Below are positions 42,490 to 59,813 of a stretch of 64,000 bases of DNA, piece by piece. The DNA comes from Bolinopsis microptera (lineage: Eukaryota > Ctenophora > Tentaculata > Lobata > Bolinopsidae), in the NCBI RefSeq assembly GCF_026151205.1, contig NC_087076.1:11756902-11820901 (forward strand), written 5' to 3'. The translations under genes and the position numbers were made by a program. The notes beneath the pieces were generated by a model that was given only the letters and a program-made list of their open reading frames with translations, did no database searches and was not told the origin of the DNA. Within the stretch, counting starts at the first letter, position 1. Each line of letters opens with the position of its first letter.

Positions 42490-43860
42490 TTGTAGTAAAC
42501 CAGCGTGGAGCACACTTGGGCCTTATCAAATGACTATGAGTGGTTCGGCAGCTACAATACGATAATACTTTCGCACTTCGAAAGCCGCGCGTGATATTGA
42601 TACTACGATACCGATTCCTATTTTGTATTCACCCCACATGAATTATAAGGGTTTAATGTTTAAATTTGATCACGTGACATGAATCGGCCATATAAGGGAT
42701 TAGGTCAAATTTCTTGCTACTGCTAGGGTTCTGGTTTGTGAGTTAGCAGATGCTTGAATAACTTAAATAGGCTCATGGTAGTGTTGAGGCTCATGGTAGT
42801 GTTGAGGTAGTGTTGAGGTAAATTAAGTTAGGGCTGTCAGAGCCATGTAGAGATCGTGTTTAACTAAGTCACGTGACAATTCAGTATAGCGTGATTGATC
42901 AGGTAGGACTAGCAATTAGATTTAGTGATTTATTCACAGAATGCCGGACACCAGGCTACCAAAGTATCTACTTTACTGGATACCTGCTCACGGCCGAAGA
43001 TCACGTGGGCGGCCAAGAAAGAATTAGCGAACCTGTGTCCTGGAAGACGCAGTAACATTTACAGGAGATCCAGACATTGTATTTGATAAGGTCCGAGAGT
43101 TGGCAGGAAATCGCAAGCACTGGAGAGAGATGATACGACATAAGCGGCAATTCCTTGGTGCAGGCCACTCGAATGATTGAGGAGACCTTATCAAGTATCA
43201 AGTAAGATTTATTCACAGCTGATTAGTGGTTATTAACATGATTAAATAATTTATTAAAAGCTTGTTCCTTGAAAAGATTCCTAAAGAGCTTAGCCTTCTA
43301 AGACAGTGTTCCTTTTGCCTGCAATTGCCTGCGTCAGAACAGCACAAGAAATAAACGTGTCTTCACACTCTTTATTGTTAATGCGTTAGATACAGTGATC
43401 TGGTCGGAGCATGTAAACTGTAGACTAAGTGCTTACTGCTTTACTGTTTAGATTAGATATGGACTCTTGCTACGTGATACGGTGGAGGCTCTTTCTATAT
43501 GAAAGCTTCGGTAAGAATTGTTTTATGCCTATATTTCAATACCTGGCTACTATAAATACACTATATCTGTCAGATGAGTTCAGTTCGTAATTAGTATACA
43601 ACCACTTTGAATTCCTTTTAAAACTTATAACGGATCAGTAACAGATTGAAGTGTAGTAGAGTTCACTTAGATCTACCATACAGCATACTACTACCATACT
43701 ATAAGTTTAATCTTGATGCAAGCTAGTAAGGTATCTTGATGCAAGCAAACTACAGTGATTTACAAATTTATCACAGATCATAGTAACAGACTGAAGTGTA
43801 GCACAATTTAACTTCACTATACCACGAAACTAAAAGTAAACAGATAAGGAGGAATGTTGA
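42490..43860 (+). repeat. Dispersed repeat block, related to 56640-58080
   Basis: It shares ATACTTTCGCACTTCGAAAG, GGGATTAGGTCAAAT, an 18-bp GGCTCATGGTAGTGTTGA tandem repeat (two units here, four at 56.9 kb), CATGTAGAGATCGTGTTTAA and a long downstream part. It is interrupted at 42940-43205 by a LINE fragment. The leading part (GTGGAGCACACTTGGG, 42498) also occurs at 49870. No gene is seen. Confidence 0.75.
42940..43205 (+). mobile_element. 266-bp LINE 3' tail insertion with 13-bp TSD
   Basis: GATTTATTCACAG flanks both sides (42927-42939, 43206-43218); the paralogous site near 57086 has it once. The insert reads in frame YLLYWIPAHGRRSRGRPRKN, a stop, RTCVLEDAVTFTGDP and then VRELAGNRKHWREM. 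This is the extreme C-terminus of an RTE/Ingi-type ORF2 (HGRR.RGRPRK … W). It ends in ATCAAGTATCAAGTAA, a short repeat tail typical of RTE-like elements. It is a 5'-truncated dead copy. Confidence 0.85.
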
Positions 43861-49804: not shown

Positions 49805-49949
49805 AGGCCCTAAAGCTTTTGAATCTTCGGACACTTGAATATATCCTAAAAATCTGAAGTAAAACCAGTGTGGAGCACACTTGGGTCTTATCAAATGACT
49901 ATCAGTGGTTCGGCAGCTACTATAATCACCTTAATAACACCAAAATGTT

Positions 49950-50403
<454 letters not shown>

Positions 50404-50525: not shown

Positions 50526-50849
50526 TCTCTCTCATTACTGTATTATATGTAGCGTCATAATTGGGTTAGCCCAGGAAGATTCGCTGTAATGTTATACCAT
50601 AAGCCCATTAGGGGAGGGGGGACTGTTAGTGTTTGGGGTCTGTTTGGACTGCAGAGAGAGAGTTCATACGACAATGTTATGCGTGTTTTCAAATATTTAA
50701 TGTAATATTGTCCCAATGTCAAAGCGATAGAAGAGACTATGACGTGACCGTTTGTATCCTAAGCAACGCATCTACTTCCTGGGCTACAGTATTGACTTCG
50801 CCATTTTCTCCTCCCTCACCGCCATCTTCTCCTCCCTCTTTCCTTCACT
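50526..50849 (+). promoter_or_regulatory. Probable 5' UTR / internal promoter region of the intact LINE
   Basis: It lies between the end of the GT-bearing repeat (about 50525) and the ORF1 ATG. It contains a G-rich run (TTAGGGGAGGGGGGACTG) and a CT-rich run just before the ATG (TCTCCTCCCTCACC). The exact 5' end of the element cannot be fixed from one copy. Confidence 0.4.
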
Positions 50850-52232
50850 ATGGATCTGAATTCTGTTACCAATGTTTTAAACTCGTTTTCATTAAAAGAG
50901 CTGAAAGCTCTTAAGGCCAGTGTTGAGAATGTCATGAAACTTAAAAGGGATTCTGTTAAATGCGAGGACTTCTTGGAGTTGCATTCAGATTTTGTTCAAA
51001 ACAAGAGTGTTCAACATGGCACGTTGATGTCTGAACTTGAAACACTTATGGCCAAGCAAACTGCTGTGAAAACTGCCACAAAGTGGCTCACTTCCACTGG
51101 AGAAGAATATGTATGGTCTTCCTCAAATGGACACACCACGACTAAGGAGCCAATCGATATTTTAAATTATCCTGGGATATCAGAGCTTATGCATGATATC
51201 AACTCCAAGTTTGGCTGCAAGCTAAACTCATTCCTAGCAAGCATGTACAAGTCTGGTGCTTGTGCAACTAGGTACCACAACGACGACGAGGTGTCTCTTG
51301 ACCAGTCGCAAGGTATTTATGTAGTTTCATTTGGAGCTGAGAGGACCCTCGACATAATTCCAGAAAATGGGGATAAGCGATGTAACAGTAAATGCCATAT
51401 CACCCCAAAGGACTGTAGTTTGTATATTATGAAACCGGGGTGTCAGGAATATTGTCTTCACAAGGTTCGTGCAGAGAGATCAGCTAAGGAGACTCGGTAT
51501 AGCTTATCTTTTCGCTGCCAGATACCGAAGACAGATACAAATGTAGTCAGGGAGCAGAATGTCCTCACTACAATTCCTATGCCGCCCACCACCACCTCAA
51601 CACCGACCCTTTACTACCGAAATGCTCCAAGAAAACCGAAGAGCAGAAAAACCACTGTCCTGTTTGGTACGTCAATGACAAAACTCGTACGGACAAATAA
51701 GTTGGGATTCCGGGGAAGGAAAGTAATCAATGTGTCCCAAAGTGGTGCAAAAATTAGAGATATCACTGAAAATATTCAGCATTTTCATAAAACTCATGCA
51801 GCTGCAGAAGCTGACGATATTGAAAAGATTATATTGAGTGTTGGTACAAATGACATAAAACATTCTAAGTATGGGGTTCAGTTCCTTAGGAAGTATCTTA
51901 ATGACTTAATTGACACCACTAAGCAGTTATTTCCCGCTGCAATTATAATTATCCAATGTTGTCTTCCTATTAAGTGTTTATATTCCTACATAGCAAAGAA
52001 TGTTCTAGATTTTAATAATCTACTTAAAGACTTATGCCTAAATAATAATTGCGTGTTCTTAGACTGTTTCTCAGACTTTTTAACTCGAGACTTTAGATCC
52101 TGTAATGAACTTCTATACCATGATTGGCTTCATCTCAACATGAGAGGAGTAGGTTTATTGTCCACTTGGCTTAAGTTTGTTGTAAACGAACACAGTTTTG
52201 ACAGGGTTGTAAATAATTTTCTGGGAATTTAA
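50850..52232 (+). CDS. LINE ORF1 protein: AlkB-like dioxygenase + SGNH esterase
   Basis: 460 residues. Residues 1-75 are charged and probably helical. About 105-223 looks like an AlkB-type 2OG-Fe(II) dioxygenase: H143-N-D145 (HxD), distal H204, and R216-YSLSF-R222 (R-x5-R, the 2-oxoglutarate/substrate signature of AlkB). A proline/threonine linker spans 241-262. About 266-445 is an SGNH/GDSL hydrolase: G273-T-S275 (nucleophile block), S298-G299, G332-T-N334-D335 (block III) and D425-W-L-H428 (block V). Esterase domains in ORF1 are known from CR1-like LINEs. An AlkB domain in the same polypeptide is what I find unusual. All catalytic residues appear intact. ORF1 and ORF2 are in different frames, 97 nt apart. 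Start: first ATG after a CT-rich leader. Confidence 0.85.
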   Translation: MDLNSVTNVLNSFSLKELKALKASVENVMKLKRDSVKCEDFLELHSDFVQNKSVQHGTLMSELETLMAKQTAVKTATKWLTSTGEEYVWSSSNGHTTTKEPIDILNYPGISELMHDINSKFGCKLNSFLASMYKSGACATRYHNDDEVSLDQSQGIYVVSFGAERTLDIIPENGDKRCNSKCHITPKDCSLYIMKPGCQEYCLHKVRAERSAKETRYSLSFRCQIPKTDTNVVREQNVLTTIPMPPTTTSTPTLYYRNAPRKPKSRKTTVLFGTSMTKLVRTNKLGFRGRKVINVSQSGAKIRDITENIQHFHKTHAAAEADDIEKIILSVGTNDIKHSKYGVQFLRKYLNDLIDTTKQLFPAAIIIIQCCLPIKCLYSYIAKNVLDFNNLLKDLCLNNNCVFLDCFSDFLTRDFRSCNELLYHDWLHLNMRGVGLLSTWLKFVVNEHSFDRVVNNFLGI

Positions 52233-52329
52233 ATCTTTGATCTTTTCTTTCATTTAATATTCTGATTAAGACGTTGCGCCTAAAATTAAAACTCAAACAA
52301 ATCTCTGATTTAATCTTTTTCTCAATTTT

Positions 52330-55300
52330 ATGCCTCCTATTTCAGGTACATTCGGTCACTGCCCATTTTCCCATATGTTAGACAATGAATCGTTTAGACT
52401 TAGAATAGGTCTTTTTGCATGCAAAAGGCCTCGTACACAGTCAAGAAATGCACATATACATATCAACACGTTTATACCTAACAAAATTTACACATTCAAG
52501 TCCCCATACACTCCACACATCAACCACAATTCTCATGATCATATGTTTCTTTTCTATTCTCTCATCATGACTTACCTTCTCCCAATTCTTCTCTCCACAA
52601 CTAGGTCCATGAACACCGTATTCCCCCTAGATTCTAATATTCATTCCTCTCTACTCCTTGACAGCCCACGTTATCTTATACCATTTCTTGCTTGCTCCCA
52701 CATCAAACTTTTCTTTGTAATTATCTCCTCATGGTTTATAAGAAATGTTCTTCTCCCTGGTAAGATGAATAGAGTCAAGTATTCCAGCCGCCTCAGGCGT
52801 CTAGTATCTTTATTCATTCTTTGGGTTTTCTCTCTTAACTTTCTTTTGATAACTCTTGTTAATCCTTCTATGCTTAATCCAGGTCCCAACTCCCTATCTG
52901 TACTCTACCAAAATGTCCAAGGTCTTATTCCTTTCAGTAACCTAAGCTCCTCCCATCCCCTTCTTGATGGTAATAAGATTTCCGAACTTCAATCCTTTGC
53001 TAACATAGAGCAGCCTGACATAATTGCCCTAAATGAGACTTGGCTCAAAAAATCTATTTCTAGCAACGAAATCTTTCCTTCTTCTCAATATGAAATCTTC
53101 CGCAATGACCGCACGAGAAAGACTCATCCTCAAGATCCTAATAACCCTAAAAAGTTTAGGGAAAATGGAGGTGGTGTTCTTTTGGCTGTTCGGTCTGATC
53201 TCGATGCCACTACAACCCGACTACCAGTTAGCCTAGGTGCAGAAATGCTTGCCGTTAAAATTGCTTTTCCTAACAAAGAGAGTATTGTAATCTGTACTTG
53301 TTATAGAGTAGGAACTCTTGGGTTACCTAATCATGATGTCATAGTTAGTTATATTCGCAAGCTAGTTTCCAAAAAGAATCCCCCTAAAATCTATGTTATT
53401 GGTGATTTTAATCTCCCCCATACAGACTGGCTATCTTCATCCAGTACCGTACCTATTGAGCAATCCTTCATAGATTCTTTCAGTGATCTTTCTCTCTCCC
53501 AGTTGATCACACCACCCACCCATAAAAGTGGTAATACATTAGACATTCTTCTCAGTAATTATGATAACACAATCGATAACTTGAATGTCTGTGATCCTCA
53601 TTCCGTGTGCAAATCTGATCATTTTCCTGTCACTTTTTCAATTAAAAGCTCCTTTTCCCGCAAGAAAACTCCTAAACGTAAAATCTATAATTATAAGAAA
53701 GCAAACTGGGACATGATTAATCGTGAATTATGCTCGATTAATTGGCAAGTCCTAGAATGCCTAGATCCTGATTCGTCTTGGAAGTTAGTTAAAGACTGCA
53801 TTATGAATTTAGTTGATATACATATTCCTAAAGTAACTATTAAATCAGAGTTTCAACCCCCGTGGTTCGACAGTGAACTTTTTTCTTCATGCCGTAAAAA
53901 AGATAGACTCAGAGCTAAATTTAAAATTTCTGGTTCTATTTCTGATGAGTTAAAGTTTGTTACTAGCCGTAAAGATTTTAAGAGGCTTTCATCAGCCAAA
54001 ATAAGAGACAATCTTTTCAATAGTGATGATCCAGCGCTTATAACTAAGAAGTTTTGGTCACATGTTAAGTATAAATCTAACTCCTGCCGTATTCCTAATT
54101 GTGTTAGTTATTCTGGACAGCTTCGGTTCAAACCCAAAGCTCAAGCTGAACTTTTCAATTCTTTCTTTTATAACCAGTTTTCGGATCCTTCACTTTATGA
54201 CACTGACATCTCCTATGTCAATGATGTTGATTTTGATATTGACTTCGATCATCGGGATGTTCGTAAGCTTCTTTCAAATATTAATTCAAATAAAGCCCAG
54301 GGACCAGATGGCATACACGGTAAAATTCTCAAAAATTGTTCCGTAGGTTTAGCTTACCCTCTAACATGCATTTTTCGTGGATCTTACAACAGCGGCTACA
54401 TTCCACAAGAATGGAAACTTGCAAATGTTGTCCCAATATTTAAGAAAGGTAAGAAAAGTGAGGTTGAAAACTATAGACCAATATCCCTTACTTGTTTAGT
54501 CATGAAAGTTTTTGAGCGCATTGTTAAACGTAAACTGCTTTCTTTGACAAGTACCCTTCTTGATCCCAGGCAGCATGGTTTTCTAGAGCACAAGTCATGC
54601 ACAACCAATATGGTTGACTTTTGTGATAGCCTGGCATTGTCTCTTAACGAAAACATTATCAATCATGTTGTGTATTTTGATTTTGCTAAGGCATTTGATT
54701 CTGTAAATCATGATATCCTTCTTCATAAGCTAAAGACCTTATATAACATTGATGGTACACTTCTCAAATTTCTTACCAATTACCTTCAAGGCCGTTACCA
54801 AAGAGTGGTTATTGGTAATGAGATGTCATCTACCCTCTCAGTTAATTCTGGTGTCCCCCAGGGCTCTATTCTTGGTCCCTTACTTTTTGTATTGTTTATC
54901 AATGATATTCCTCTTGGCCTTTCGGATAATACTGATATTGTTTTGTATGCCGATGATACAAAAATCTGGCGTAAAATACATTCATCTTCTGATAATACTA
55001 ATTTACAAATGGATATAGACTATCTCTCTGACTGGGCACTAAGAAACAAAATGCGATTTCATCCAGCAAAATGTAAAGTGCTTATTGTTTCAGGAAAACC
55101 ATCTTTATCTCCTCCATTCGCATATAATCTTGATGGCTCTCCTCTTGTGTATGTAGAGTTAGAAAAAGATCTTGGAGTCGATGTTACTCCTAAGCTAAGT
55201 TGGAATAGTCAGTGCGACAGAATTTATACTAAGGCCTGCCAACAACTTGGTATGGTCAGAAGAGATGGCCATATTGTCATTGATCAGAAACGTCGCCGGG

Positions 55301-55845
55301 CGCTTTACCTCTCCCTGGTTCGTAGCCAATTCGAAAATTGTTCCATAATCTGGCGCCCTTGTAATAAATCACTTAGTGATAAATTAGAAAGTCTCCAAAA
55401 GAGAGCTATTAAATGGATTCTGTCTGAAGAGGGCCGCAGTTATCCACCTGAGCAATATGTCAAAAAGTGCAAGCTTGTCGACATTCTCCCTTTGTCTCAA
55501 AAGTTTGACTTGAATGATCTTATTTTTTTCCACAAAGTTCTTAACAATTTAATTCCTGTATCGCTGCCTCACTATCTCTCTTTATATCAGGGCACTTCTC
55601 GACTAAGACGTTGCCACCTCGACAGTCTGTCTATTGTGTCATCAATTTTACCTAAGTTAAGTCAGAATTCACACACCACATGTACCTCAAATAGCCCACT
55701 GGCAAAATCATTTTTCTACAGAACCCATATACTGTGGAATGGACTCCCTTTACAGGTAAGACAGATTGTGTCTACTAGTCTTTTCAAAGCTGAGGTCACT
55801 AAGCATCTATGGAAATGTTTATTGGATAGTGAAACAACAGTCTAG
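52330..55845 (+). CDS. LINE ORF2 protein: APE endonuclease + reverse transcriptase (CR1-like)
   Basis: 1171 residues if the first ATG is used. Residues 1-180 are poorly conserved-looking and include hydrophobic stretches (LFYSLIMTYLLPILL; LFILWVFSLNFLLITLV), followed by NPGP at 183-186. The endonuclease follows: QN195, NE236TWL, GD359FN361 and SD430H431FP, all catalytic positions present. The RT spans roughly 640-930 with QGPDGI, YRPISL, FD784FAKAFD, GVPQGSILGPLLF and YAD875D876. The C-terminus ends LWNGLPLQV…LFKAEVTKHLW, as in CR1-type LINEs. With the esterase in ORF1 this favours the CR1 group. No stop or frameshift interrupts it, so the copy may be recent and active. A downstream ATG (for example near 52765) could be the true start. 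Confidence 0.93.
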   Translation: MPPISGTFGHCPFSHMLDNESFRLRIGLFACKRPRTQSRNAHIHINTFIPNKIYTFKSPYTPHINHNSHDHMFLFYSLIMTYLLPILLSTTRSMNTVFPLDSNIHSSLLLDSPRYLIPFLACSHIKLFFVIISSWFIRNVLLPGKMNRVKYSSRLRRLVSLFILWVFSLNFLLITLVNPSMLNPGPNSLSVLYQNVQGLIPFSNLSSSHPLLDGNKISELQSFANIEQPDIIALNETWLKKSISSNEIFPSSQYEIFRNDRTRKTHPQDPNNPKKFRENGGGVLLAVRSDLDATTTRLPVSLGAEMLAVKIAFPNKESIVICTCYRVGTLGLPNHDVIVSYIRKLVSKKNPPKIYVIGDFNLPHTDWLSSSSTVPIEQSFIDSFSDLSLSQLITPPTHKSGNTLDILLSNYDNTIDNLNVCDPHSVCKSDHFPVTFSIKSSFSRKKTPKRKIYNYKKANWDMINRELCSINWQVLECLDPDSSWKLVKDCIMNLVDIHIPKVTIKSEFQPPWFDSELFSSCRKKDRLRAKFKISGSISDELKFVTSRKDFKRLSSAKIRDNLFNSDDPALITKKFWSHVKYKSNSCRIPNCVSYSGQLRFKPKAQAELFNSFFYNQFSDPSLYDTDISYVNDVDFDIDFDHRDVRKLLSNINSNKAQGPDGIHGKILKNCSVGLAYPLTCIFRGSYNSGYIPQEWKLANVVPIFKKGKKSEVENYRPISLTCLVMKVFERIVKRKLLSLTSTLLDPRQHGFLEHKSCTTNMVDFCDSLALSLNENIINHVVYFDFAKAFDSVNHDILLHKLKTLYNIDGTLLKFLTNYLQGRYQRVVIGNEMSSTLSVNSGVPQGSILGPLLFVLFINDIPLGLSDNTDIVLYADDTKIWRKIHSSSDNTNLQMDIDYLSDWALRNKMRFHPAKCKVLIVSGKPSLSPPFAYNLDGSPLVYVELEKDLGVDVTPKLSWNSQCDRIYTKACQQLGMVRRDGHIVIDQKRRRALYLSLVRSQFENCSIIWRPCNKSLSDKLESLQKRAIKWILSEEGRSYPPEQYVKKCKLVDILPLSQKFDLNDLIFFHKVLNNLIPVSLPHYLSLYQGTSRLRRCHLDSLSIVSSILPKLSQNSHTTCTSNSPLAKSFFYRTHILWNGLPLQVRQIVSTSLFKAEVTKHLWKCLLDSETTV

Positions 55846-56262
55846 CCTAGTCTCTTTGCTCCCCATATTATTATTATTTTTGTTTTATTAATTTTTTTAT
55901 CTACCTTCCTATACTTTCAACATCATATCACACTTCACCCGCACACCTTCTCACACATTAATGACCATTTCAGACCTGTATCTAATGTATCTGGAATTTG
56001 ACGTATTGAAATACCAATTTTGACTCCATATCCACAGTTATTCACCATGGATTTGTTTGTTCTTAAATAGTTTTTCATAAATTTTTGGATTTAGATTAAT
56101 TCGATGTAATGGGTCCAAGTTACTGCGGACATAGTTCACTATGTGTTTACCGTGTTTGGGTACCCATCATATTTTACAGATGGGGGCGATATTTTGAACG
56201 ATTCTATTTTATATTCATCTATTGCTGTACTCTGTAAAATTTGAAAAGTATTTAATAAAAAA
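55846..56262 (+). other. Probable 3' UTR of the intact LINE
   Basis: Non-coding, starting directly after the ORF2 stop. A T-rich stretch with ATTATTATTATTTTTG lies at 55868, and an A-rich run (TTAATAAAAAAATA) near 56250 may mark the end. CR1-type elements end in short repeats rather than poly(A), so the exact end is unsure. Confidence 0.45.
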
Positions 56263-56339
56263 ATAGGCGGGTGTGGTGCGGAGTTAACAAGGGTTAATTT
56301 CTATAACGATTTAAATAAAAATGGAAAGCGGTTCAAGAC

Positions 56340-56410
56340 TTACTGGGCGGCGCTCAGCCTGTCATTCCGCCAAATCTTTATGAACATAATAGCCTGGAGT
56401 CCCCAGGTAA
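56340..56410 (+). mobile_element. 71-bp MITE, copy 3 (8-bp TSD TTCAAGAC)
   Basis: TTACTGGGCGGCGCTCAGCC … GAGTCCCCAGGTAA, same orientation as copy 1. TTCAAGAC is duplicated exactly at 56332-56339 and 56411-56418. CAGCCTGTCATTCCGCC is identical in all three copies. Confidence 0.9.
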
Positions 56411-56639: not shown

Positions 56640-58080
56640 ACTAGTACGATAATACTTTCGCACTTCGAAAGCCGCACGTGATATTGATAATGATCGACAC
56701 CGATTTCTATTCTGTATTCACCCCACATGAATTAGAAGGGTTTAATGTTTTCCTGATGATTTATCGGCGAAAACTGTCAAACTGTTTAGATTAAATTTGA
56801 TCACGCGTGACATGAATCGGCCATATAAGGGATTAGGTCAAATCTCTTGCTAAGGTTCTGGTTTGTGAGTTAGCAGATGCTTGAATAACTTAAATAGGCT
56901 CATGGTAGTGTTTAGGCTCATGGTAGTGTTAGGGCTCATGGTAGTGTTGAGGCTCATGGTAGTGTTGAGGTAGTGTTGAGGTAAAAGTTAGGGCTGTCAG
57001 AGCCATGTAGAGATCGTGTTTAACTAAGTCACGTGACAATTCATTATAGCGTGATTGATCAGGTAGGACTAGCAATTAGATTTAGTGATTTATTCACAGC
57101 TGATTAGTGGTTATTAACATGATTAAATAATTTATTAAAAGCTTGTTCCTTAGAACCGATTCCTAAAGAGCTTAGCCTTCTAAGACAGTGTTCCTTTTGC
57201 CTGCAATTGCCTGCGTCAGAACAGCACAAGAAATGAACTTGTCTTCACACTCTTTAATGCGTTAGATACAGTGATCTGGTCGGAGCATGTAGACTGTAGA
57301 CTGTAGACTAAGTGCTTACTGTTTAGATTAGATATGGACTCTTCCTACGTGACACGGTGGAGGCTCTTTCTATATAAAAGCTTCGGTAAGAATTGTTTTA
57401 TGCCTATAATTTCAATACCTGGCTACTATAAATACACTATATCTGTCAGATGAGTTCAGTTCGTATACTTACTTTGGTAACTTTGGTTTGCTTCATAGAA
57501 TCCTCTATCGGGTCATCAGAGTTGCTGACCACCCGGGCAGCGAGATCGCTGCCTTTATTCCACTCCAGTCCAGTAACGAGTTTCCATTTCGACAGCTGTA
57601 TACTTTGAATTCCTTTTAAAACTTATAATGGACCAGTAACAGATTGAAGTGTAGTAGAGTTCACTTAGATCTACCATACAGCATACTACTACCATACTAT
57701 AAGTTTAATCTTGATGCAAGCTAGTAAGGTATCTTGATGCAAGCAAACTACAGTGAAATTCTTATTCATAACAGCCTTCTTTTACTTGAACATTTACAAA
57801 TTTTAATTTAATTTAAATTTATCACAGATCATAGTAACAGACTGAAGTGTAGCACAGTTTAAGTTTAACTACCATACGGCATACTATAAGTTACATCTTG
57901 ATTATTGATGCAAGTTAATAAGGTATCTTGATTCTTGATGCAAGCAAACTACAGTGGAATTCTTATTTAGAACGGCCTTCTTTTACTTGAACATTTACAA
58001 ATTTAAATTTATCACAGATCATAGTAACAGACTATAGTGTAGCACAGTTTAAATACTACGAGACTACAGAATATATATAT
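56640..58080 (+). repeat. Dispersed repeat block, second copy of 42550-43860
   Basis: Same order of segments as 42550-43860. It has four GGCTCATGGTAGTGTT units and no LINE insertion at the 57086 target. It has an extra ~120 bp at about 57476-57600 containing a GCAGCGA-GA-TCGCTGC hairpin, and repeated AGATCATAGTAACAGACT segments (57834, 58017). No gene is seen. Confidence 0.75.
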
Positions 58081-58085
58081 CTTGA

Positions 58086-58424
58086 TTTTACCAAAACCCA
58101 TAATCATGGGTAGAGTGGACCGCTGCCAGTGTCTCTCTTTACCAAACAAAAGGAAATGATATTAATTTGATTGACCGTTCTCAAATGCAAAATGATACCG
58201 AGAATGAAATCGGTCGCTCGCTTTTCCCCCACAGATGCCTTTGGGTAGTTTTTCTTAATCTATTACAATTGTAAATGAATGGGAAAAGCGAGGGACCGAT
58301 TTCATTCTCGGTATCATTTTGCATTTGAGAACGGTCAATCAAATTAATATCATTTCCTTTTGTTTGGTAAAGAGAGACACTGGCAGCGGTCCACTCTACC
58401 CATGATTATGGGTTTTGGTAAAAT
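58086..58424. repeat. Hairpin module, 58-kb copy (arms 58086-58228, 58281-58424)
   Basis: Two ~143-bp arms pair almost perfectly around a 52-bp loop. Landmarks: ATTTTACCAAAACCCATAAT and its complement at the outer ends, TTTCCCC and GGGAAAAGCGAG at the loop. This copy has GATTGACCGTTCTCAAATGC paired with GCATTTGAGAACGGTCAATC. The other copies have a different but also matched pair. Confidence 0.9.
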
Positions 58425-59813
58425 ATCATCTCTTTTTGATTATAATGTCAGGGTACTTTATAAAGTCGAAATATAAACTGATATCTTCATTAATATTAAT
58501 AAGGAGGAAGTTTCAACGATTTCGAAATTTTTCCTTTAAAAACATTTCTTTGTGTTTAGGTAAGCATATCGGTCGATCACTGACTGAATATGCCACTTTA
58601 TACTCATTCAAGTTGGCATTAAATTCATACATAATGACATTAAAAAGCAGAATTTGTTGGAAATCACGAATGAGCAAAATTCTCACCTTTCGCACGTGCA
58701 AACTTTGAGCGGACGTTGCCTGCGCATCCAATATTGAATCGCCGTAAATTTGTGCATGTAATTGTTTTATATATAGTTTGATAAGCATGCAAAGTTTCAA
58801 AGTATTTCAAGAAGAACTGTAATCACAACGGCACTCTAAAGTTGACAGAAAATGACGAAAACAGCAATTTTCAGTGATTTTAGCAATTTTCTATCAATTT
58901 GGGCGTGTCCCCACGTGTGCAACTTTTCGATTTTCAACTTTAAAACTAGCCTAATGCACAATTTATACCTATAGGAAGCAGAACTGAGCTCCACGACCCA
59001 AGGCATGGCCCAACACCAGAGAATACTAAATCGCAAAATTGACGTTTTTATAAAATAATTCTTCAAAAAAGCACAAACTTCAATGACGAATATCTTTATG
59101 AAGGAGCAAGCTAGAAAAACTTTCCGGTAGATTTTCAGAATGCTTGAACAATTATCTAAGATGAAAATTTCCTCAGATTTTGAATACAATTACTTTTTAA
59201 TGGTTTAAAATCATTTTTTAAAGTTATTACTTTGTCAAAAATCAAGTTTTAAAAACGGTTAACTTGATGACGTCATCAAGGGGTGTTTATGACGTCAAAT
59301 AATTTGTTTATACAATGTAAACTAAAGTATAAACAATTATTTTCAAGACCTGTGGTCGGAAATGGCTGTATCTTTTATACTTTTGAATCTATGGACAATT
59401 AAATACAGGCTACAATTGACTGGCAAAGCGTCTATCCCTGAATATATGTATATAGGTATGTATGTATCACGACAATCTATCGTAAAACAGGGGTTCTAGA
59501 AAACCCATTTCCCGATGATCCTGAGACCTGAAACTTTTTTTGCAGTCGATTTGGTCAACGTCTAGACGCCCTTAAAAATTTCAGATCTGTAACTCAATTT
59601 TAACATGGTTTTTAAGGCACCTGAATATGGCGATTTTGGGTTTTTTACCGAATTTCGTATAACAGTGCTGGCGAGTATTTTATGCAAATTTCTTAAAAAT
59701 CTCAACATAACTATTTTTATTCCTGTCATCTTTGACATCAAATTAGAATGTTTTGAACTAAAAATAAATCTGCTGAACGACTTCCGATGAGTCTTAATGC
59801 CTGAAAAACTCCT

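Follow-up and report, generated by a model that had tools for sequence, protein, structure and literature searches.

An AlkB-like dioxygenase fused to an SGNH esterase in the ORF1 protein of a comb-jelly LINE

A LINE of the comb jelly Bolinopsis microptera has an ORF1 in which an AlkB-like dioxygenase is fused to an SGNH esterase, a point on which sequence profile, predicted fold, conservation and context agree, and that both folds and their fusion are real can be taken as practically certain. The element lies in a window of 64,000 nucleotides, the whole stretch analysed (NCBI RefSeq assembly GCF_026151205.1, contig NC_087076.1, forward-strand positions 11,756,902 to 11,820,901). A first-pass annotation, made from the letters of that window, had proposed the fusion, and the residues that it named (H143, D145, H204, R216, R222, S275, G299, N334, D425 and H428) are all where it placed them. 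Why should a retrotransposon keep such an enzyme? The best explanation as a whole, for and against which we find the scales about level, is a LINE ORF1 protein with an AlkB demethylase that acts on the template. That the AlkB–esterase pair is kept intact in related elements suggests a role in cleaning or handling the young element's own nucleic acid during copying.

The element and its ORF1 fusion

To judge from its sequence, the window element is a two-ORF APE-type non-LTR retrotransposon (Jockey/CR1/L2 group), with ORF1 upstream and an APE-like endonuclease and a reverse transcriptase in ORF2. Its parts, in window positions, are as follows.

50710..56263, plus strand: whole non-LTR element, about 5554 bp; 5′ boundary GTCCC..., 3′ terminus TTTAATAAAAAAA
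50850..52232, plus strand: ORF1, AlkB–SGNH fusion, 460 aa; ATG start, intact frame
50856..50951, plus strand: N-terminal helices, residues 3-34 (AlphaFold model)
50955..51527, plus strand: AlkB-like 2OG-Fe(II) dioxygenase domain, residues 36-226
51276..51284, plus strand: H143-x-D145, iron ligands 1 and 2 (alignment column conservation)
51288..51290, plus strand: E147 of HxDxE, common to ALKBH3 (aligned to the ALKBH3 Glu)
51459..51461, plus strand: H204, iron ligand 3 (alignment column conservation)
51495..51515, plus strand: R216-x5-R222, 2OG-binding motif RYSLSFR, with S218 where host-like genes have Asn
51546..51620, plus strand: disordered linker, residues 233-257 (pLDDT <50)
51642..52193, plus strand: SGNH/GDSL esterase domain, residues 265-448
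51672..51674, plus strand: S275, catalytic Ser, block I (alignment column conservation)
51744..51746, plus strand: G299, block II (alignment column conservation; copy L010 has Ser)
51849..51851, plus strand: N334, block III (alignment column conservation)
52122..52133, plus strand: D425-x2-H428, block V (alignment column conservation)
52330..55845, plus strand: ORF2, 1171 aa, APE-type endonuclease and reverse transcriptase (Pfam matches)

The Pfam matches in ORF2 are PF14529 (4.6e-13, residues 320-434), PF03372 (3e-7, 208-408) and RVT_1 (1.2e-28, 708-918). The outer limits come from blastn comparison with five other long copies (L009-L013): in all five the match starts at 50710, and at the other end the matches stop at 56262-56265, that to L010 being in two pieces with an internal gap. 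No target-site duplication was recognised by eye in the flanks of the window element. An LTR retrotransposon carrying AlkB, as in orchids, was ruled out by the lack of long terminal direct repeats: none of 25 nt or more was found when 50600-56400 was scanned, and the sole direct repeat of that length there is an internal 26-nt pair (73%). Outside the element, a few hundred bases upstream, is a long TG/CA microsatellite at 49946-50402; a repeat scan just upstream of the element found nothing. Elsewhere in the window there are dispersed repeat pairs (57087-57465 with 43206-43589, and 57602-57756 with 43604-43758), and 58071-58500 is repeated near 42.3, 44.2-44.6, 60.6-60.8 and 63.6-64.0 kb.

For the identity of the two halves of ORF1, the Pfam search that the first-pass annotation had proposed was decisive only for the esterase (GDSL_2, E 4.3e-12), the dioxygenase of the window copy falling short of the cut-off (PF03171, E 0.006, 17.3 bits where 23 are needed). 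Its relatives do pass: one member each of families B, C, D, E, F, G and H was scanned, and every one has PF13532 above cut-off; the domain is also among the precomputed annotations of 74 of 101 relatives. With phmmer against the PDB, ORF1 residues 107-226 matched ALKBH3 (E 2.7e-9), and SGNH chains were also matched, among them the ORF1 esterase of zebrafish ZfL2-1 (4c1b, E 1.9e-4); a profile of 102 aligned proteins sharpened this to 4.9e-19 for ALKBH3, 4.9e-17 for ALKBH2 and 1.3e-12 for 4c1b. A double-stranded beta-helix had been expected within residues 105-223, and the predicted model has an AlkB fold at 36-226. A chance motif match was ruled out by these E-values together with residue conservation and the fold comparison.

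Which AlkB family is nearest? In sequence profiles and fold comparisons ALKBH3 and ALKBH2 outrank AlkB and, where these are listed, ALKBH1, ALKBH5, ALKBH6 and FTO, absence of a family from either list not being used as proof of distance. The top structural match of the predicted ORF1 model is ALKBH2, and ALKBH3 and ALKBH2 outrank the others for the model of family G as well. The m6A-eraser family (ALKBH5/FTO) was set aside as closest kin on its lower fold Z, about 18 vs 21.5-22.9 for ALKBH2/3, a gap of about 3.5 to 5 that does not decide substrate. Viral replicase models are among the BFVD fold matches of ORF1, and a scan with the profile of the 102-row alignment found no relatives in viral contigs.

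Conservation and selection

In the alignment of 102 rows, query included, counts are of rows having the column. Retention of the HxD…H residues across related copies had been singled out in the first-pass annotation as telling, and it is complete: H143 in 96/96, D145 in 96/96 and H204 in 100/100. E147, which aligns with the Glu of ALKBH3 HSDDE, is kept in 95/96, R216 in 100/101 and R222 in 101/101. For the SGNH blocks the figures are S275 99/101, G299 101/101, N334 100/100 and H428 97/98, with the triad Asp, D425, at 81/97, so that the dioxygenase residues are retained no less strictly than those of the esterase. In 55 aligned of 110 family-G relatives the iron triad is also invariant and the R-x5-R invariant or nearly so.

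Two positions depart from the canonical 2OG site. The Asn of N-x-Y is Ser in the window element, and N in only 4/96 rows; at position 218, the Asn of R-x-N-x-T-x-R, the window element again has Ser, and of the 101 rows 77 have S, 22 have C, one has N and one has L. As both canonical Asn are Ser, 2OG binding may be altered. Ser218 is common to representatives of all eight families A-H, and the three host-like ALKBH genes (L039, L040, L041) all have Asn; the element domain, departing from the R-x-N-x-T-x-R of human ALKBH3 and the host-like genes, is thus best termed ALKBH2/3-like and not ALKBH2 or ALKBH3 proper. These substitutions give some ground for supposing that the fold is kept only for nucleic-acid binding, with catalysis dispensable or lost, as does the statement, in the available part of PMC3905857, that esterase ORF1ps have no other RNA-binding domain. 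However, even relatives at about 25% identity keep the iron ligands without exception and both Arg almost without exception, and binding alone needs neither, so this reading seems to us decidedly improbable. The AlkB domain is not basic (pI 7.1), which offers no support for strong binding to RNA in general. The dioxygenase is probably active.

A search for other LINEs with the fusion, also suggested at the outset, showed it to be more widespread than the first-pass annotation had seen: families A-D, of which the window element belongs to A, carry an ORF1 of this kind. The genome has 25 full-length stop-free copies of the window ORF1, the window copy included, and these, together with the same layout in families B-D, rule out a one-off fusion or assembly join.

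A dN/dS comparison had been proposed too, and with families A-E pooled it gave purifying selection on the AlkB region: 19 synonymous variants per 508 sites and 12 nonsynonymous per 1769, a ratio of 0.18 (Fisher p 2.8e-6). By the same pooling the ratio is 0.27 after AlkB and 0.46 (p 0.075) before it. What was counted were unique within-family codon variants among equal-length copies (A 13/13, B 5/5, C 3/3, D 3/4, E 4/8), copies of unequal length, which in families D and E distort the SGNH region (ratio 1.94), being left out. Copies were chosen by protein similarity, with a resulting bias toward intact ones. In family A by itself, with 78 pairs summed, the ratio is 0.51 for AlkB vs 0.18 for SGNH, and the unique AlkB variants are 10 synonymous and 10 nonsynonymous, so the strong selection result rests on pooling five families. 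Between homologues the two domains are about equally conserved.

Mobile elements are known to capture extra domains (PMC9289625, as far as its accessible text goes). Might the AlkB part then be a captured host ALKBH exon, riding along functionless in a chance or decaying fusion? With the 25 intact family-A copies, the conserved active site, purifying selection and AlkB in families A-H all contradicting it, this is scarcely credible, the pooled selection ruling out a decaying passenger domain.

What the dioxygenase may do for the element

m1A and m3C are lesions that stop reverse transcriptases. The ORF1 protein of this two-ORF APE-type LINE comprises a predicted helical N-terminus, an ALKBH2/3-like dioxygenase and an SGNH esterase. 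Within the ORF1p ribonucleoprotein its AlkB domain would serve to bind nucleic acid and would also be catalytically competent as an Fe(II)/2OG demethylase; its substrate would be LINE RNA in single-stranded form, first-strand cDNA or both, from which it would remove Watson-Crick-face methyls (m1A/1meA, m3C/3meC) that block reverse transcription. That the RNA or cDNA template is the main substrate is a proposition on which we could argue either side with equal force. The esterase would have the role proposed for that of ZfL2-1, tethering the particle to lipid or stripping acyl groups. Packaging of element RNA is presumed for ORF1 proteins, and Schneider et al. (2013), in the portion of PMC3905857 at hand, reported no RepBase esterase ORF1p with a structural RNA-binding domain and asked how RNA is bound; an ALKBH2/3-like domain would fill that gap. 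Template demethylation, already suggested in the first-pass annotation, is our leading mechanism, ranked above erasure of a host mark, a role in binding only and repair of host DNA.

Host-mark erasure would have the dioxygenase remove DNA 6mA/5mC or RNA m6A and so counter silencing of the element. Fungal DNA transposons carry TET/JBP enzymes and orchid Gypsy elements carry an m6A demethylase (PMC12730594 and PMC9289625 respectively, each in its accessible part), but the sequence and fold here, in a comparison that covered AlkB, ALKBH and FTO enzymes, are closer to ALKBH2/3 than to ALKBH5, FTO or ALKBH1, and we think the idea unlikely. Alternatively the enzyme might act on the host, for instance in repair of the nicked target site or of single-stranded target DNA in target-primed integration. 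The ALKBH2/3 database entries are named as DNA dealkylases, and it is ALKBH2 that heads the structural matches; against this stands the presumed packaging of element RNA by ORF1p (PMC3905857, available part), which leaves action on the host a very slim prospect beside template demethylation.

Several known systems come close, cited here from the available portions of the papers. One is zebrafish ZfL2-1 (PDB 4c1b; Type IV ORF1, CR1/L2 LINEs), which likewise has an SGNH esterase at the ORF1 C-terminus and an EN-RT ORF2 downstream. A coiled coil ahead of the esterase is a mark of Type IV ORF1s; the model here predicts helices at residues 3-34. ZfL2-1 differs in that in the window element an AlkB domain precedes the esterase, and in that its transposon-specific H191/S228 pair aligns here to S330/Q369 (numbering anchored on S143), S-Q being present at those positions in 83/100 rows. 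The ALKBH2 and ALKBH3 dealkylases share the fold, HxDxE, the distal His and R-x5-R, whereas the domain here is retrotransposon-encoded and esterase-fused and has R-x-S-x-[ST]-x-R in place of R-x-N-x-T-x-R. Two cases serve as precedents. In orchid Ty3/Gypsy elements a retrotransposon also carries AlkB, and there RNA demethylase activity was measured; unlike the present case, those are LTR elements of Phalaenopsis with an ALKBH5-like AlkB in a separate ORF (PMC9289625). SymbioLINE-Dnmt, of the dinoflagellate Symbiodinium, is a LINE whose ORF upstream of the reverse transcriptase likewise encodes an enzyme that modifies nucleic acid, though that enzyme is a cytosine methyltransferase, a writer, and the one here is of the eraser type (PMC5890265); the window element is in that sense its counterpart. 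RNA viruses (Alphaflexi-, Betaflexi- and Closteroviridae) have AlkB in another RNA-templated selfish element (PMC9289625), there in replicase proteins and not in a LINE ORF1.

No description of AlkB in a LINE ORF1, or of an AlkB–SGNH fusion, was found among the open-licence PMC papers listed in the searches, judged by titles and abstract starts, a mention in Repbase, Dfam or bioRxiv being possible; the available part of PMC6338049 has no mention of AlkB, dioxygenase, esterase or ORF1. The ZfL2-1 study, in its accessible portion, left nucleic-acid binding by esterase ORF1s open (PMC3905857), and here a conserved nucleic-acid-processing fold adjoins the esterase. If active, this would be a retrotransposon editing the chemistry of its own template.

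Families, origin and a spliced leader

Families A-D are two-ORF LINEs sharing the ORF1 and ORF2 layout, with ORF2 44-47% identical between families; among the matches listed in the ORF2 search there are near copies and otherwise only ones at 54%. Family E has an endonuclease match directly downstream (7.5e-6, above cut-off). Family G combines a PHD-like finger, AlkB and SGNH, and has a weak endonuclease match (0.005, below cut-off) in an overlapping frame. Its finger rests on the 55-row alignment and sub-threshold Pfam matches; among its 110 relatives the SGNH pattern was found in 84 and the PHD pattern in 2, the latter ill-chosen in asking for CxxC where the alignment has CxC, and four are named Mnemiopsis leidyi. 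Families F and H have AlkB with SGNH-like stretches, and no ORF2 was seen in their available loci, which do not extend far enough. The order of parts also varies: in family F (L043, L053, L057) SGNH comes first, then a long Pro/Ala-rich stretch and then AlkB, in open frames of 1012 aa (L053) and 2459 aa (L043), and a 706-aa homologue, P0088, has two AlkB matches and then the esterase.

Genome-wide there are at least 151 PF13532 matches, those listed all being above the Pfam cut-off (150 of 587 candidates scored). Element genes and host genes both occur in the set, which includes at least three host-like ones (L039-L041), and many matches lie in open frames of 550 to >3000 aa. With some 150 listed matches above cut-off, this genome offers a good animal setting in which to ask why RNA-templated selfish elements keep demethylases. 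Resolution in the AlkB-domain tree is weak, with stars on 12 of its 29 inner branches. A 94/87 branch, below the star threshold, has families A-G, 13 long homologues and two short ones on one side, and on the other the host-like genes, six other short proteins mostly of unnamed origin and family H, itself a long branch; the mis-cut L012 row, the second family-H row and P0110, P0116 and P0119 (domain pattern unmatched) were left out. Because Ser218 is common to the representatives of families A-H, the residue pattern suggests a single AlkB capture, which we favour.

Many copies begin with what looks like a spliced leader. Twelve further loci of family A (L002-L013) were compared: directly before GTCCC, 8 have a leader of some 43 nt and 2 a second variant, while the leader of L007 is truncated and L008 has none; in the ten carriers (L002-L006, L009-L013) the flanks beyond the leader are unrelated. 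The window copy has no leader at 50710. In other families, allowing up to 6 mismatches, leaders were found at 5/5 loci of B, 1/3 of C, 2/4 of D, 7/11 of E (one of the second variant) and 1/2 of H, and at 0/1 of G and 0/3 of F, loci that may stop short of the 5′ end. By locus, the two variants are at L014-L017, L020, L021, L024, L025, L045, L047, L049-L051 and L054-L056.

Where does the leader come from? Aligned to the published Hormiphora leader (PMC8527503, available part) it is identical in 39 of 46 columns, where 500 shuffles gave a mean of 25.4 and a maximum of 33. When up to 3 mismatches are allowed, the leader matches at 1012 places in the genome and the reversed control at 0. The leader end plus a donor occurs 170 times; in 72 of these both parts are perfect, and the 72 all read GAG|GTAAG and are mostly clustered, 36 of them in one C3 array with a period mostly of about 591 bp. 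This pattern fits spliced-leader RNA genes and trans-splicing of the LINE RNA before insertion. Candidate gene clusters are at C3:13511053-13533417 (part of it L059), C5:21.34-21.35 Mb, C13:12.78-12.95 Mb and C13:15.24 Mb; the putative genes have exon end TTTGAG and donor GTAAG, and beyond the donor the sequence matches Rfam SmY (E 0.0035) below the gathering score.

A comprehensive account would be of a large comb-jelly LINE group in which the usual RNA-binding part of ORF1p has been replaced by a demethylase that clears RT-blocking methylation off its own template, one ancient capture having since been rearranged into a number of forms (helical, PHD-bearing, with the esterase on either side of AlkB) and host spliced leader being taken up on the RNA before insertion. 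As a whole this picture is tentative and somewhat less likely than not. At the junction the leader ends in TAG in 8 of 10 family-A cases, 5/5 of B and 1/1 of C, in both variants, while the leader genes end in GAG; perhaps the TAG is that of an inherited leader serving as splice acceptor.
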